Below, one piece after another: positions 1-45,156 of a stretch of DNA of 64,000 nucleotides (position 1 is the first letter of the stretch; the number at the start of each line of letters is the position of its first letter). The notes beneath the pieces are model-generated. The model searched no databases. It worked only from the letters and a program-made list of their open reading frames with translations, and had not been told where the DNA came from. Source of the stretch: Flavobacteriaceae bacterium (GTDB lineage Bacteria; Bacteroidota; Bacteroidia; Flavobacteriales; Flavobacteriaceae); assembly GCA_013215105.1 (NCBI GenBank), contig JABSPL010000046.1, positions 1 through 64,000 of the forward strand, read 5' to 3'. A program made the translations under genes and the position numbers.

Positions 1-21
1 ATAAAGAATATATTAAATGTT

Positions 22-171
22 AAGGTATGTTAAGGTATGACAAGGTTAGAATTGTAGTTTCGGGGGGTCATTTAGGGGTTAATAGTCTTATTGAAGGTTA
101 ACATATCCCAACATTTTACATGAAGGTATCCGAAGGTCAAAGACTGGTTTTATACTAAGGTATCCAAAGGT
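22..171. repeat. Phased AAGGT direct repeats, 10-bp period
   Basis: AAGGT occurs at 22, 32 and 42 (three copies exactly 10 bp apart), once at 94, then as 10-bp pairs at 123/133 and 157/167. The longer unit in the last two pairs is AAGGTATCC(G/A)AAGGT. Spacing of one helical turn places every motif on the same DNA face, as in response-regulator or iteron-type binding arrays. The protein that would bind is unknown. Confidence 0.6.
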
Positions 172-205
172 TGACGATGTTGTTTTGCTACATCATAATA
201 CACAA

Positions 206-402
206 ATAGGACAATCCAAATCTGGACTATCCTTTTACATTACTTTATACTTTTGCTCAAAAATGAGCTAAAGAGGACTGAGCAAATTTACTTAGTCCTT
301 TGTTAGGTCTATCCTCTACCCTGTAACAACGATAAATAGGTTAATCCAAATCTGGACGCACCTTTTACTCAAAAATGAGATAAAGAGGTTAGCCAAAATT
401 TA
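206..402. repeat. Two imperfect direct repeats with internal palindromes
   Basis: Copy 1 (206-290) and copy 2 (336-402) share ATAGG, AATCCAAATCTGGAC, CCTTTTA, CTCAAAAATGAG, TAAAGAGG and AAATTTA in the same order. Copy 1 carries about 17 extra bases in the middle. Both contain TCCA-N4-TGGA and the small hairpin CTCA-AAAA-TGAG. Copy 1 also forms a 9-bp stem around 274-299. No coding potential is apparent. This could be a small non-coding repeat element or a duplicated binding site. Confidence 0.55.
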
Positions 403-427
403 TTGAGGTTTTTAGACACTTTACTTC

Positions 428-458
428 CCAACTAATATGTAACGAATATATTAGTTGG
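428..458. repeat. Inverted repeat, 11-bp stem
   Basis: CCAACTAATAT (428-438) pairs perfectly with ATATTAGTTGG (448-458) across a 9-nt loop. Flanking TT/AA can extend it past one bulged C. No T-run follows on either strand, so it is a poor terminator and a better candidate for a protein-binding palindrome or RNA structure. Confidence 0.5.
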
Positions 459-507
459 AAAGTCGTCTATACTATAACTAACCAGTCGGTTATTTCTCGA
501 GCCTTAT

Positions 508-705
508 TCAGTAAATAAGTTGATTTTGTTTATACATCTGTACCTTGCTTGTACCTTTTGAATTTAAAGTCTTATGTTTACTAGGAAAGTAGATATTGTA
601 TTGGGAAGTAATGTAAAACACAGCTAGATATCCTTTGTTAATGAATATTACTTTATTACCATTCTTTTTAATTGTATAGATTTTTAATTGGTCGGTTTTA
701 GGCAT
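508..705 (-). CDS. Small hypothetical protein (65 aa)
   Basis: This is an open frame of 65 codons starting at ATG and ending at TGA. I do not recognise it. The product is basic and rich in Lys, Asn and Tyr, with no signal peptide, membrane segment or known motif that I can see. In its favour, an AAGGGGA stretch lies 8-14 nt upstream of the ATG, a Shine-Dalgarno-like sequence that is unusual for this genome. Against it, it sits alone in repeat-rich DNA and its composition is close to what random AT-rich DNA gives. It may be real or spurious. Confidence 0.3.
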   Translation of the reverse strand: MPKTDQLKIYTIKKNGNKVIFINKGYLAVFYITSQYNIYFPSKHKTLNSKGTSKVQMYKQNQLIY

Positions 706-821
706 ATAAAATTCCCCTTTTCTGAAATCTACATAAGTTAATTCCTGACTTATTGACTTTAGAGATATAAGTAATAATATATATTAATAAGTTTTTAATC
801 GTTTAAAAACAAATACAAACC

Positions 822-865
822 AAAAAAGACTTAAAAAATTGCTAAGCAACTAATTAAGTCTTTTT
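822..865 (-). terminator. Rho-independent terminator of tRNA-Leu
   Basis: AAAAAGACTTAA (823-834) and TTAAGTCTTTTT (854-865) form a 12-bp stem. Inside it TTGC-TTA-GCAA can pair further. On the minus strand the hairpin follows the tRNA 3' end by a few bases and runs into a T tract, so it terminates the tRNA transcript. Confidence 0.8.
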
Positions 866-870
866 AAAAG

Positions 871-952
871 TACCTTGGGAGGGAATCGAACCCTCACTCC
901 CGAAAGAACTGGATTTTGAATCCAGCGCGTCTACCAATTCCGCCACCAAGGC
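871..952 (-). tRNA. tRNA-Leu (anticodon CAA)
   Basis: Read on the minus strand, the sequence starts GCCTTGGTGGCGGAATTGG, has an anticodon stem CTGGA/TCCAG closing the loop TTCAAAA (anticodon CAA, reads UUG), a short variable arm, a T-arm with GGTTCGATTCC and an acceptor 3' strand CCAAGGT plus discriminator A. CCA is not encoded. A terminator follows directly and a TACTTTTG -7 element lies upstream (991-998, minus strand). Confidence 0.95.
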
Positions 953-990
953 TAGTAGTGTCTCACTATTGAGCGTAAAACTAACGGATG

Positions 991-998
991 CAAAAGTA
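991..998 (-). promoter_or_regulatory. -7 element of the tRNA-Leu promoter
   Basis: The minus strand reads TACTTTTG, an exact match to the Bacteroidota -7 consensus TAnnTTTG. It lies about 40 bases ahead of the mature tRNA 5' end. I do not see a clear -33 TTTG at the expected distance. Confidence 0.45.
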
Positions 999-1065
999 AT
1001 ACATTTTATTGGATATCCTAATATTTATTTGTTAATTTTTTAATATATAAGAAAAATTATTTTCA

Positions 1066-1073
1066 TATTTTTG
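1066..1073 (+). promoter_or_regulatory. -7 element upstream of prs
   Basis: TATTTTTG matches TAnnTTTG. Transcription starting 4-7 bases downstream would begin at about 1077-1080. That favours the second in-frame ATG (1109) as the prs start over the ATG at 1076, which would be leaderless or untranscribed. No good -33 box is seen. Confidence 0.5.
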
Positions 1074-1108
1074 TAATGTTTTTAAAACTAACCCCAAAAA
1101 TAAATAAT

Positions 1109-2050
1109 ATGAATGCCCAAGTATTGAAACCAAAGATTTTTGCTTGTTCTCAGAGTGTCGAATTAGCACAAAAGATAGCAGACAGCTATAAAGGGGAGTT
1201 AGGAAAGATAAAAGTATCCCGATTTAGCGATGGAGAATTTCAGCCAGTAATAGAAGAATCTGTCAGAGGAAGAAGAGTGTTTATAGTAGGCTCTACTTTT
1301 CCTGACGCCGATAATCTTATGGAATTATTACTAATACTTGACGCTTGTAAAAGAGCTTCGGCAAGGCATATAACAGCTGTTATCCCTTATTTCGGATGGG
1401 CTAGACAAGACAGAAAAGACAAGCCTAGAGTAGCTATTGGCTCTAAACTTGTAGCTAAGATGATAGAAGCAGCAGGTGCAACTCGTATAATGACTATGGA
1501 TCTACATGCCGATCAAATACAAGGTTTCTTCGAAATACCTGTTGATCATCTGTATGCTTCAACTATTTTCTTACCACATATCAAAGATAAAGGATTAAAC
1601 AATCTTACTATGGCATCACCCGATATGGGGGGATCCAAAAGAGCTTATGCTTACTCTAAATTTTTGAATTCGGATGTTGTTATTTGTTATAAGCAAAGAG
1701 ATAAAATAAATGAAATAGCTTATATGGAACTTATAGGGGAAGTGAAAGGTAAGCACGTAATATTGGTAGACGATATGGTCGATACTGCAGGTACTCTTAC
1801 CAAAGCTGCCGATGTAATGATAGAAAGAGGAGCCCTGAGCGTAAGAGCAGTAACCACTCATGCTATCCTTTCGGGAGAGGCTTATGAGAAAATCGAGAAT
1901 TCTAAATTGAAAGAATTAATAGTAACCGATTCTATTCCTTTAAAAAGAGTTAGTTCTAAAATAAAAATTGTATCTTGCGCCCCGTTATTTGCTAAGGTGA
2001 TGCATAGTGTACACGACAATATATCTATTAGCGATAATTTTTTAATGTAA
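1109..2050 (+). CDS. prs: Ribose-phosphate pyrophosphokinase
   Basis: The enzyme makes PRPP from ribose 5-phosphate and ATP, the precursor for purine, pyrimidine, NAD, His and Trp synthesis. It acts in the cytosol. Family signatures are visible: the ATP-binding region around FSDGEFQ and RQDRKDKPR, the metal/PRPP signature MTMDLHADQIQGFF, and the PRPP-binding loop ILVDDMVDTAGTL. From the ATG at 1109 the product is 313 aa, the usual family length. The frame also has an ATG at 1076 adding 11 residues (MFLKLTPKINN), but the -7 element at 1066-1073 makes 1109 more likely. It heads a run of translation genes and is followed 19 nt later by rplY, so the two are probably co-transcribed. Confidence 0.97.
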   Translation: MNAQVLKPKIFACSQSVELAQKIADSYKGELGKIKVSRFSDGEFQPVIEESVRGRRVFIVGSTFPDADNLMELLLILDACKRASARHITAVIPYFGWARQDRKDKPRVAIGSKLVAKMIEAAGATRIMTMDLHADQIQGFFEIPVDHLYASTIFLPHIKDKGLNNLTMASPDMGGSKRAYAYSKFLNSDVVICYKQRDKINEIAYMELIGEVKGKHVILVDDMVDTAGTLTKAADVMIERGALSVRAVTTHAILSGEAYEKIENSKLKELIVTDSIPLKRVSSKIKIVSCAPLFAKVMHSVHDNISISDNFLM

Positions 2051-2069
2051 AATAATTATATATTATACC

Positions 2070-2681
2070 ATGAAGTCAATTAAAATAGAAGGATCAAAAA
2101 GAGAAATCGTAGGAAAAAAGGCAACTAAAGCTCTACGTAATGCTGATAAGGTTCCTTGCGTATTATACGGAGGAAACGAAACTATCAGCTTTACTGCAGA
2201 AGAAAAAGCTTTTAAAAGTTTAGTTTACACTCCAAATGTATATACTGCGGAATTGAGCATAGACGGTACTAAGCATAACGCTGTATTACAAGACATCCAG
2301 TTTCACCCTGTAACTGATAAAATCTTACACATAGATTTTTACCAGATTTCAGAAGGTAAAGCTATAACTATGGAAATACCAGTTAAATTGACAGGTAAGT
2401 CTAAAGGTGTTGTAATTGGTGGAGCTTTGAGACACAATATGAGAAAAGTAAAGGTAAGTGCTCTTTTAGAGAACCTTCCTGATCTTATCGAAATTGATAT
2501 CACTGAATTAGCTATAGGTGGAAGAATTACGATAGCTGATATCAAAAGTGATGCTTACGAAATAATGGAAGCTGATAACTCTGTTATTGTTCAAGTAAGA
2601 ATGTCTCGTAATGCTACTGAAGATGAAGAAGAGTCTACTGAAGAGTCTACTGACGAAGCAGCAGCTACTACAGAAGCATAA
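2070..2681 (+). CDS. rplY: 50S ribosomal protein L25/general stress protein Ctc
   Basis: This is the 5S rRNA-binding protein of the large subunit. At 203 aa it is the long Ctc type: an N-terminal L25 domain (about 1-90, with SKREIVGKKATKALR and VPCVLYGG) followed by the C-terminal TL5/Ctc beta domain (about 95-180) and a very acidic tail rich in Glu, Ser and Thr from about residue 185. It begins 19 nt after prs and ends just before a strong terminator, so prs-rplY looks like one unit. The prs-rplY-pth order is a common arrangement in Flavobacteriia. Confidence 0.95.
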   Translation: MKSIKIEGSKREIVGKKATKALRNADKVPCVLYGGNETISFTAEEKAFKSLVYTPNVYTAELSIDGTKHNAVLQDIQFHPVTDKILHIDFYQISEGKAITMEIPVKLTGKSKGVVIGGALRHNMRKVKVSALLENLPDLIEIDITELAIGGRITIADIKSDAYEIMEADNSVIVQVRMSRNATEDEEESTEESTDEAAATTEA

Positions 2682-2710
2682 TTTTGATAAAATAACATTA
2701 TTAAAAGATA

Positions 2711-2741
2711 AAATGCCTTACTTTTGTAAGGCATTTTTTTT
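2711..2741 (+). terminator. Rho-independent terminator after rplY
   Basis: AAATGCCTTAC and GTAAGGCATTT pair over a TTTT loop and are followed by a T tract. The right part also contains TACTTTTG (2719-2726), a match to the TAnnTTTG -7 consensus placed 26 nt before pth. The hairpin may therefore double as part of the pth promoter, although no -33 box is at the right distance. Confidence 0.85.
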
Positions 2742-2751
2742 ATACACATAA

Positions 2752-3318
2752 ATGAAAAAATTTTTAATAGTAGGCCTAGGGAATATTGGCTCAGAATACG
2801 CCGAAACCAGACATAATATAGGTTTTAAAGTAGTTGAAAAACTAGCAAGAGATAAATCTGTTAATTTTGAGACAGGAAAACTAGGTAGTACTACTAGTTT
2901 CAGATTCAAAGGGAGAACTTTTATACTTTTAAAACCATCAACCTATATGAACCTGAGCGGTAAAGCAGTTAGGTATTGGCTTGACAAAGAAAAAATAAAT
3001 ATAGACAACTTACTAGTTATAACCGACGACCTTAATCTTCCATTTGGGACTATCAGAATGAAAGCCAAAGGTAGCGACGGAGGTCATAATGGACTTAAAA
3101 GTCTCCAGGAAATCTTGATGACTAATAAATATCCTCGCTTTAGGTTTGGTATAAGTTCCGAGTTTGGCAAAGGAAGACAAGTAGATTACGTTTTAGGTAA
3201 GTGGAATAGTCAAGAATTAGAAACTTTAGAAGAAAGAATCAAAATAGGATCTGAACTAATTATATCATTCGGAACAGAAGGTTTAGCTAATACTATGAAC
3301 AAATTTAACGGTAAATAA
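2752..3318 (+). CDS. pth: Peptidyl-tRNA hydrolase
   Basis: Pth hydrolyses the ester bond of peptidyl-tRNAs released by stalled ribosomes and recycles the tRNA. The family motifs are intact: FLIVGLGNIGSEY at the N-terminus, the catalytic His in TRHNIGF, KPSTYMNLSG, the catalytic Asp in VITDDLNLPFG, and GGHNGLKSL. The length, 188 aa, is normal. The ATG lies 10 nt past the T tract of the terminator that follows rplY, so pth probably has its own promoter or depends on read-through. A weak terminator follows. Confidence 0.97.
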   Translation: MKKFLIVGLGNIGSEYAETRHNIGFKVVEKLARDKSVNFETGKLGSTTSFRFKGRTFILLKPSTYMNLSGKAVRYWLDKEKINIDNLLVITDDLNLPFGTIRMKAKGSDGGHNGLKSLQEILMTNKYPRFRFGISSEFGKGRQVDYVLGKWNSQELETLEERIKIGSELIISFGTEGLANTMNKFNGK

Positions 3319-43299: not shown

Positions 43300-45156
43300 T
43301 TATCCTTTAGACTCTCTTTTTCTACCGAATCCGCTTCCTCCAGAAGTTCTTCTTCTTCCTTGTGATGATGATGACGACGATGAGTTACTGCTAAATCTTC
43401 TTCTAGATCCACCACCATCTCTACTTCCACCATCTCTATTTCCGCCACCTCTTCTATCAGAAGAACCACCTCTATAACCTCCTCTATCAGAAGAACCACC
43501 TCTAGAACCACCTCTACCACGACCTCCGCCGCCACCTCCACCTCTCTTGGCTTTGGTTACTTCTAAGTTTACATTTCTACCATTAAAGTCAGCTCCTATT
43601 ATAGAATCTAAAGCTTCCTGCTCGTAGTTTTTATCAATCTCAAAGAATGAGAATGTATCTAGTATATCTATCGATCCTATTTCTATTCCACTAGTCTGAG
43701 TATTGTCATTTATCAGTCCTATAAGTGATTTAGGATCTAATGAATCTTTTCTACCTATATTAATAAAGAATCTGGTCATGTTTTCGTTAGACGAACTTCT
43801 ACCACTATCCCTACTATCTCTACCACTATCAGCTTCATTCAAGTCTCTCGACTTAGAGTAATACTCTAAGAAAGAATTAAATTCTAGAGATACAAATCTT
43901 TTAATCAATTCCTCTCTATCCATATGAGCTAATTTCTCAAATATGGTTTCAGTGTATTTAGATAATTCTGTTTCGTTGACCTCTACATTCTCAACTTTAC
44001 CAATCATTTTAAACAACTGACTTTTGCATATTTCAACTCCGTCAGGCACTTCTTTTTTAGTAAACTTCTTACTAATTCTTTTTTCTATAGGTCTTATTTT
44101 ATTAAGCTCTTTACGAGTAACTATCGATATAGAAATTCCTTTAGCACCAGCCCTACCTGTACGTCCACTACGGTGAGTATAAGCTTCTATTTGGTCTGGC
44201 AATTTGTAATTTATAACATGAGTAAGATTTTTTACGTCTATCCCTCTAGCTGCCACATCGGTAGCACAAAGTAATTGTATAGACTTTTTCTTAAACTTCT
44301 GCATTACATTATCTCTCTGTGCTTGAGACAAATCTCCATGTATAGCATCTACACTATAACCGTCTTGTATTAGTTTTTCAGATATTTCGTTAGTCTCTCT
44401 TTTAGTTCTACAGAAAATAACTCCATATATCTCAGGATTAGCATCCGAAATTCTTTTCAGAGCAGCATATCTATTACGTTCTGTAACCATATAATACTCA
44501 TGAGAAACACTATCAGAACCAGTATTTACTGTACCTGCTTTTATATCAACAGGGTTATTCATATAGTTTCTCGCTATTGCATCAACCTCCCTAGGGAAAG
44601 TAGCTGAAAATAATAAAGTTTGTTTTTCTTTAGGAGTTTCGTTAAGAATCTTATCTAATTCATCTTTGAAACCCATATTTAACATTTCATCAGCCTCATC
44701 TAAGACTAACCAACGTAAGTTTTGAGGTTTCAAAGCTCTTCTATTTATAAGATCTACCGTTCTACCAGGAGTACCTACAACTATATGAGCTCCTCTACGA
44801 AGTTTTCTTATCTGGTCTTCGGCATTAGCACCTCCATACACAGTAACTACGTTAAAGCCTTTTATATGCTTAGCAAACTCTCTTATGTTTTCCCCTATCT
44901 GTACAGCAAGTTCTCTTGTTGGAGATAGTATCAATGCTTGAGTATCTTTACTAGACAAATCTATTTGCTCTAGTATCGGTAAACTAAAAGCAGCAGTTTT
45001 ACCTGTACCTGTTTGAGCAAAAGCCTTCACATCACGGGTAGAACCAATGATTTGAGGTATTGCTATTTTTTGTATTTCTGTTGGTGATTTGTAACCTAAA
45101 TCGGTTAACGCTCTTTGGATTACTTCTTTTAATCCTAATTCTGTAAATGTTGACAT
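43300..45156 (-). CDS. DEAD-box RNA helicase with DbpA-type domain and RGG tail
   Basis: This is a 618-aa ATP-dependent RNA helicase. The Q motif and motif I (AQTGTGKTAA), DEAD box (VLDEADEML), SAT, and HRSGRTGRAG motif VI lie in residues 1-360. A DbpA-like RNA-recognition domain follows (about 445-525), and the last 90 residues form a low-complexity tail of RGG, GGG, DR and a run of about eight Ser. This CsdA/DeaD-like type helps ribosome assembly and RNA folding in the cold. The leader of about 60 nt ahead of the ATG fits a cold-shock-type gene, but no cold-box is obvious. Confidence 0.92.
   Translation of the reverse strand: MSTFTELGLKEVIQRALTDLGYKSPTEIQKIAIPQIIGSTRDVKAFAQTGTGKTAAFSLPILEQIDLSSKDTQALILSPTRELAVQIGENIREFAKHIKGFNVVTVYGGANAEDQIRKLRRGAHIVVGTPGRTVDLINRRALKPQNLRWLVLDEADEMLNMGFKDELDKILNETPKEKQTLLFSATFPREVDAIARNYMNNPVDIKAGTVNTGSDSVSHEYYMVTERNRYAALKRISDANPEIYGVIFCRTKRETNEISEKLIQDGYSVDAIHGDLSQAQRDNVMQKFKKKSIQLLCATDVAARGIDVKNLTHVINYKLPDQIEAYTHRSGRTGRAGAKGISISIVTRKELNKIRPIEKRISKKFTKKEVPDGVEICKSQLFKMIGKVENVEVNETELSKYTETIFEKLAHMDREELIKRFVSLEFNSFLEYYSKSRDLNEADSGRDSRDSGRSSSNENMTRFFINIGRKDSLDPKSLIGLINDNTQTSGIEIGSIDILDTFSFFEIDKNYEQEALDSIIGADFNGRNVNLEVTKAKRGGGGGGGRGRGGSRGGSSDRGGYRGGSSDRRGGGNRDGGSRDGGGSRRRFSSNSSSSSSSQGRRRTSGGSGFGRKRESKG

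Follow-up and report, generated by a model that had tools for sequence, protein, structure and literature searches.

At the left end of the window, by which we mean the whole stretch of 64,000 nucleotides analysed here, a set of short AAGGT repeats is followed by two diverged copies of a longer repeat, a palindrome, a doubtful open reading frame, a tRNA-Leu(CAA) gene and the genes prs and rplY (Table 1). Base 1 of the window is also base 1 of contig C166 (79,983 bases), which belongs to a draft assembly, placed in Flavobacteriaceae by its named relatives, of 224 contigs, 92% complete and the single sampled genome of its genus. No stretch of the window devoid of a 90-codon open frame is longer than bases 1-1075, in which the tRNA is included; the runner-up has 539 bp.

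Table 1. Features at the left end of the window, in window coordinates
Feature	Position	Strand	Remarks
Array group 1	17..46	+	three 10-bp units, ATGTTAAGGT/ATGTTAAGGT/ATGACAAGGT
Lone AAGGT	94..98	+	
Array group 2	118..137	+	AAGGTATCCGAAGGT plus five upstream bases
Array group 3	152..171	+	AAGGTATCCAAAGGT plus five upstream bases
Copy A of ~90-bp direct repeat	204..295		diverged; has hairpins, the minus strand of 196-333 folding with a z-score of -4.26
Copy B of ~90-bp direct repeat	334..407		78% and 86% to copy A over two blocks
Palindrome, 41 bp	423..463		16-nt arms 94% complementary, 9 nt between
Doubtful gene	508..705	-	65-codon open frame
tRNA-Leu(CAA)	870..952	-	
prs, ribose-phosphate pyrophosphokinase	1112..2050	+	start picked by us in frame 1076-2050
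rplY, ribosomal protein L25/TL5	2070..2681	+	

On the plus strand, AAGGT starts at positions 22, 32, 42, 94, 123, 133, 157 and 167 (span 22-171), with start-to-start steps of 10, 10, 52, 29, 10, 24 and 10, such that seven of the eight words fall into groups with a 10-bp spacing and the one at 94 stands alone. An earlier note on this DNA had described eight AAGGT words in 150 bases, seven of them phased at 10 bp, and our recount gives the same figures. The three groups are out of helical phase with each other, since the step of 52 is close to five turns and those of 29 and 24 are not whole numbers of turns; groups 2 and 3 have in common a 24-nt block that is 83% alike. The pattern AAGGT-N5-AAGGT has four matches in the window, all of them in the array, against a mean of 0.22 in shuffled sequence. 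Dinucleotide shuffling of the window (200 rounds) gave no pentamer of three or more different letters with eight copies in 150 bp (largest 7) or with four 10-bp pairs (at most 2, scored only for words with at least four copies in 150 bp), and when bases 1-500 were shuffled, AAGGT reached neither eight copies nor four pairs in any of 2,000 trials. As no shuffle matches the count or the number of pairs, the low chance that the earlier note had ascribed to such phasing is borne out, and the array is real and non-random. Within the window, eight copies in 150 bp are also attained by ACCTC and by the two-letter word CCACC near 43.4 kb; the window maximum of four 10-bp pairs is found at the AAGGT array. 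Those ACCTC and CCACC clusters have their source in the frame at 43300-45156, DEAD-box-helicase-like as judged from motifs by eye, which has a long, repetitive tail rich in glycine, arginine and serine.

When the eight copies are aligned, the five core columns hold no mismatch, as opposed to 22 in the five columns after them and 17 in the five before. With these numbers of mismatches spread evenly, 200,000 draws gave a clean five-column block in 0 and in 2 cases, a result that favours AAGGT because the word was picked for its recurrence, after the data had been seen, and the copies were collected by it; it is to be taken with further caution as adjoining units have flank bases in common. One-mismatch copies of AAGGT number one on the plus strand of the first 200 bp, the window mean being 2.8, and one or no such near-miss is found in 25% of the 200-bp stretches of the window. 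The invariant core, the variable flanks and the near-misses that are not in excess suggest that the word is maintained, and not that a tandem repeat is decaying.

All six reading frames are closed across the array, such that it does not lie in a coding region and a coding region of the left neighbour can be ruled out as its source. As the earlier note states, the array has no gene assigned in the window; this follows from where the assembly stops and says nothing about the site as such. Window base 1 being the first base of the contig, what lies to the left is unassembled, and no regulator, promoter or target gene is tied to the array. Contigs C145 and C68 carry AAGGT pairs near their ends, and these give no sign of a neighbour contig since both lie inside a long open frame.

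Between the array and the tRNA gene, copy A and the palindrome (196-463) are structured beyond shuffles and match no Rfam family, whereas the hairpins are poorly preserved in copy B (z-score of 326-425, minus strand, -1.01). Inspected by eye for integron-like attC sites, the hairpins offered no convincing core pairs. At gathering scores, Rfam recognised the tRNA alone in bases 1-3000. The doubtful frame has one Pfam match far under the cut-off (12.1 of 27 bits), none in PHROGs, phages or plasmids, and matched only itself among 199 family genomes.

To the right of the array, tRNA-Leu(CAA) adjoins prs here and in 77 of 80 relatives, taken as the best 80 prs loci listed from named genomes; none of these is close, their Prs identity being 75-80%, and two of the three loci lacking the tRNA beside prs have fewer than 220 bases of contig ahead of prs. 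By contrast with this pairing, what lies to the left varies from genome to genome. In 49 of the 75 loci with a left frame of at least 70 codons, no left frame of another locus (up to six frames per locus, 352 in total) is related to the nearest one, and the commonest left-frame family was present at nine loci. The 75 nearest frames matched 81 Pfam families, the commonest of which, among the matches listed, had four members. In the largest group of nearest frames (L068, L090, L092, L106 and L110) the frame enters the tRNA gene by 47 bp; four of the five have Pfam Resolvase and Recombinase domains, and that of L110 has a partial Recombinase domain and a second related frame upstream. Judged from these sequences, the DNA on the 3' side of tRNA-Leu(CAA) looks like an insertion hotspot in Flavobacteriaceae, and this side of the tRNA-prs pair would be a fixed place to seek mobile elements in the family. 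Flavobacterium micromati (L061, 3742-5702) has two tRNA-Leu(CAA) genes, 1.9 kb apart, to the left of prs, an arrangement that an insertion at the tRNA might produce.

Elsewhere in the assembly, AAGGT-N5-AAGGT is rare. It has 13 sites, against 9 for the reversed control; four of the 13 are in the array and the other nine all lie in open frames of 169-1004 codons, such that the array is not a common feature of this genome. Neither of the outcomes that the earlier note had named as refuting it, a common array or one inside a coding region, was observed in this assembly. Among exact pairs in the 92%-complete assembly there was no second intergenic one, a poor fit to a regulator with many targets; a genome-wide regulon is unsupported, as the other exact pairs match the control in number and are all in open frames. 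With up to two mismatches, ATNNNAAGGTATNNNAAGGT has 79 sites in the assembly and its control 62; the exact matches are only three array pairs, and the one-mismatch sites are the fourth array pair and three sites elsewhere. A triple array was found in 4 of 397 family genomes, our own counted, and the control pattern in 19. From these counts no genome-wide or family-wide system of such arrays is seen, and we regard the array as a locally unique set of probable binding sites, ordinary in kind.

DNA similar to bases 1-500 was found in none of the 396 other family genomes, so that the array has no comparative footprint there; in its own genome, besides the query and its own palindrome (E 0.06), the same bases gave only short matches at E above 0.1. 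Against 198 relatives, including its own genome, bases 1-870 gave only short matches in ten others, at or to the right of base 649. In none of 75 left-of-tRNA regions (300 to 1500 bp each) does any word form as many as three phased pairs at steps of 9, 10 or 11, against four here. Triple arrays also occur in viral DNA, in at least 120 stretches listed, and in 58 of the 133 rows examined, which combine viral and family loci and in which the family rows repeat one array, they lie in a frame of at least 100 codons. The 19-mer of group 1 is present in two viral stretches. Long degenerate stretches of short-word repeats were seen in viral contigs L171 and L244 (NNGGT/NNGGC-like) and L216 (AAAGGT-like). 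In one published paper ATGTTAAGGT occurs within primers.

The reading we tentatively favour is that the array is a head-to-tail operator, and that its regulator controls the left gene missing from the assembly. Half-sites with an AAGGT core would be occupied head to tail by a DNA-binding protein that places a subunit at each helical turn; groups 1, 2 and 3 would then be dimer sites and the word at 94 an extra lone half-site. The regulated promoter would most likely read leftwards, into a gene starting beyond the contig edge, because no frame of 50 or more codons reads rightwards from the array before prs. As the left gene is unassembled, the binding, the fold of the protein and the gene under control are inferred. 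Binding of this kind is the mode of OmpR/PhoB-type response regulators and of some other winged-helix proteins. OmpR/PhoB-type operators have direct half-sites spaced by 10-11 bp on the same strand, and the array has direct half-sites at such a spacing on one strand. Its non-coding position, where the nine other pairs of the genome lie in open frames, its eight copies and four 10-bp pairs, unequalled in shuffles, its core free of mismatches and the lack of excess near-misses also count in favour, as does the likeness to the PmrA box described below. Against this, the surrounding 500 bp hold other duplications, and neither conservation (no similar DNA in the other family genomes, fewer than three phased pairs in each of the other left regions) nor repetition upstream of other targets was found. 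Sigma-70-like sites number 10 in bases 1-1200, where shuffles have 6.0; one, at 33-5 on the minus strand, matches at 9 of 12 positions. A Bacteroidetes-type promoter consists of TTG, 18-22 nt and TAnnTTTG; this two-element motif was found on neither strand of 1-1112. The earlier suggestion of an iteron or response-regulator array thus stands in its second half, as the best of the remaining readings, and not in its first, iterons being unlikely beside tRNA-Leu, prs and rplY. If the array is an operator, a local regulator of this flavobacterial genus could be sought with it as a simple binding target.

The same repeats could instead have grown neutrally, slippage and local duplication having made the 10-bp units and the longer blocks in functionless, fast-changing non-coding DNA to the left of the tRNA, and we consider this quite possible. 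The two ~90-bp repeats and the recurring 24-nt block show duplication in the same 500 bp, and the lack of conservation among family genomes and left regions agrees with it; moreover, group 1 scores 46 in Tandem Repeats Finder, under several other tandem repeats of the window and hence not outstanding, and similar AAGGT decamer arrays without a long frame exist in other genomes, for instance a set of 13 words in G362, where the longest frame has 81 codons, and ATGTTAAGGT in tandem in viral contig L245, where it has 53. What neutral growth accounts for less well is a core free of mismatches, the missing trail of one-mismatch copies and the unlike spacers that part the units into groups, where one tandem run would be expected. 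Folding brings in a further explanation, that the array belongs to an untranslated or small RNA of the minus strand, to which we give a low probability: bases 1-480 do fold well (z-score -4.27 on the minus strand, -2.91 on the plus), but folding is strongest at 196-333 and at 415-470 (-5.22), outside bases 1-150, where six of the eight words lie and the z-score is -1.07 (minus) and +1.26 (plus), and 1-870 matched no Rfam family at E up to 1. As the array itself folds no better than shuffles, a structured RNA was discarded.

The hotspot character of the tRNA gene, with its 49 unshared left frames and five frames of serine recombinases entering the tRNA, bears on another explanation, in which the AAGGT words would be arm-type sites of a tyrosine integrase, or excisionase sites, of an element integrated at tRNA-Leu(CAA). 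Such sites are conceivable given the hotspot and the excisionase RdfS of ICEMlSymR7A, which is reported to bind about one subunit per 10 bp with no apparent consensus motif; the same element has five arm sites with the consensus TGKTGGTATC in a 283-bp attP (PMC11963761), and GGTATC is common to this IntS arm consensus and to groups 2 and 3. We nevertheless hold attachment sites to be unlikely. The array lies 700-850 bp from the tRNA 3' end (870), too far for an attP of 283 bp and beyond the ~300 bp from a recombination core at the tRNA end within which arm or excisionase sites are expected; no integrase gene has room in the 870 bp to the left of the tRNA, where the longest open stretch is 91 codons, and a search of the 92%-complete assembly for a 20-mer from the 3' end of the tRNA, two mismatches allowed, gave no second copy. 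The recombinases recognised in relatives are, in addition, of the serine type, which is not known to use arm sites. Less probable still is an undescribed mobile element at the tRNA-Leu(CAA)/prs hotspot of Flavobacteriaceae, whose control end would be formed by bases 1-470 with the array, the hairpin repeats and the palindrome, and whose own directionality or copy-control protein would dock at the array. Replication or partition iterons, which would also be short direct repeats near palindromes, are highly improbable: the contig has tRNA-Leu, prs and rplY, and the tRNA/prs pairing is kept in relatives; blastn at E 1e-5 found no plasmid or phage record similar to 1-870; and a Pfam search of the three right-hand frames (prs, L25 and the doubtful frame) gave no replication or partition gene. 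Iterons were judged unlikely from this chromosomal context.

Compared with known arrangements, the array has partial likenesses. The tandem AAGGT decamers of L245 have the ATGTTAAGGT unit in common with it, and G362 is a single regular run, whereas the array here keeps the word and not the spacers. The IntS and RdfS sites of ICEMlSymR7A are likewise short and several in number, close to the point of insertion at a tRNA, with 10 bp per RdfS subunit; the array differs in lying 700-850 bp off the tRNA with no integrase in view. The PmrA box consists of the half-sites CTTAAT and CCTAAG, about one turn apart and bound head to tail (PMC3973317). The array has more copies, in three groups, a step of 10 bp as compared with 11 bp between the PmrA half-sites as described there, and no regulator tied to it; like the PmrA box, it is built of direct half-sites about one helical turn apart, and on the minus strand group 1 has the sequence CTTAAC-N4-CTTAAC, which resembles the PmrA half-sites.
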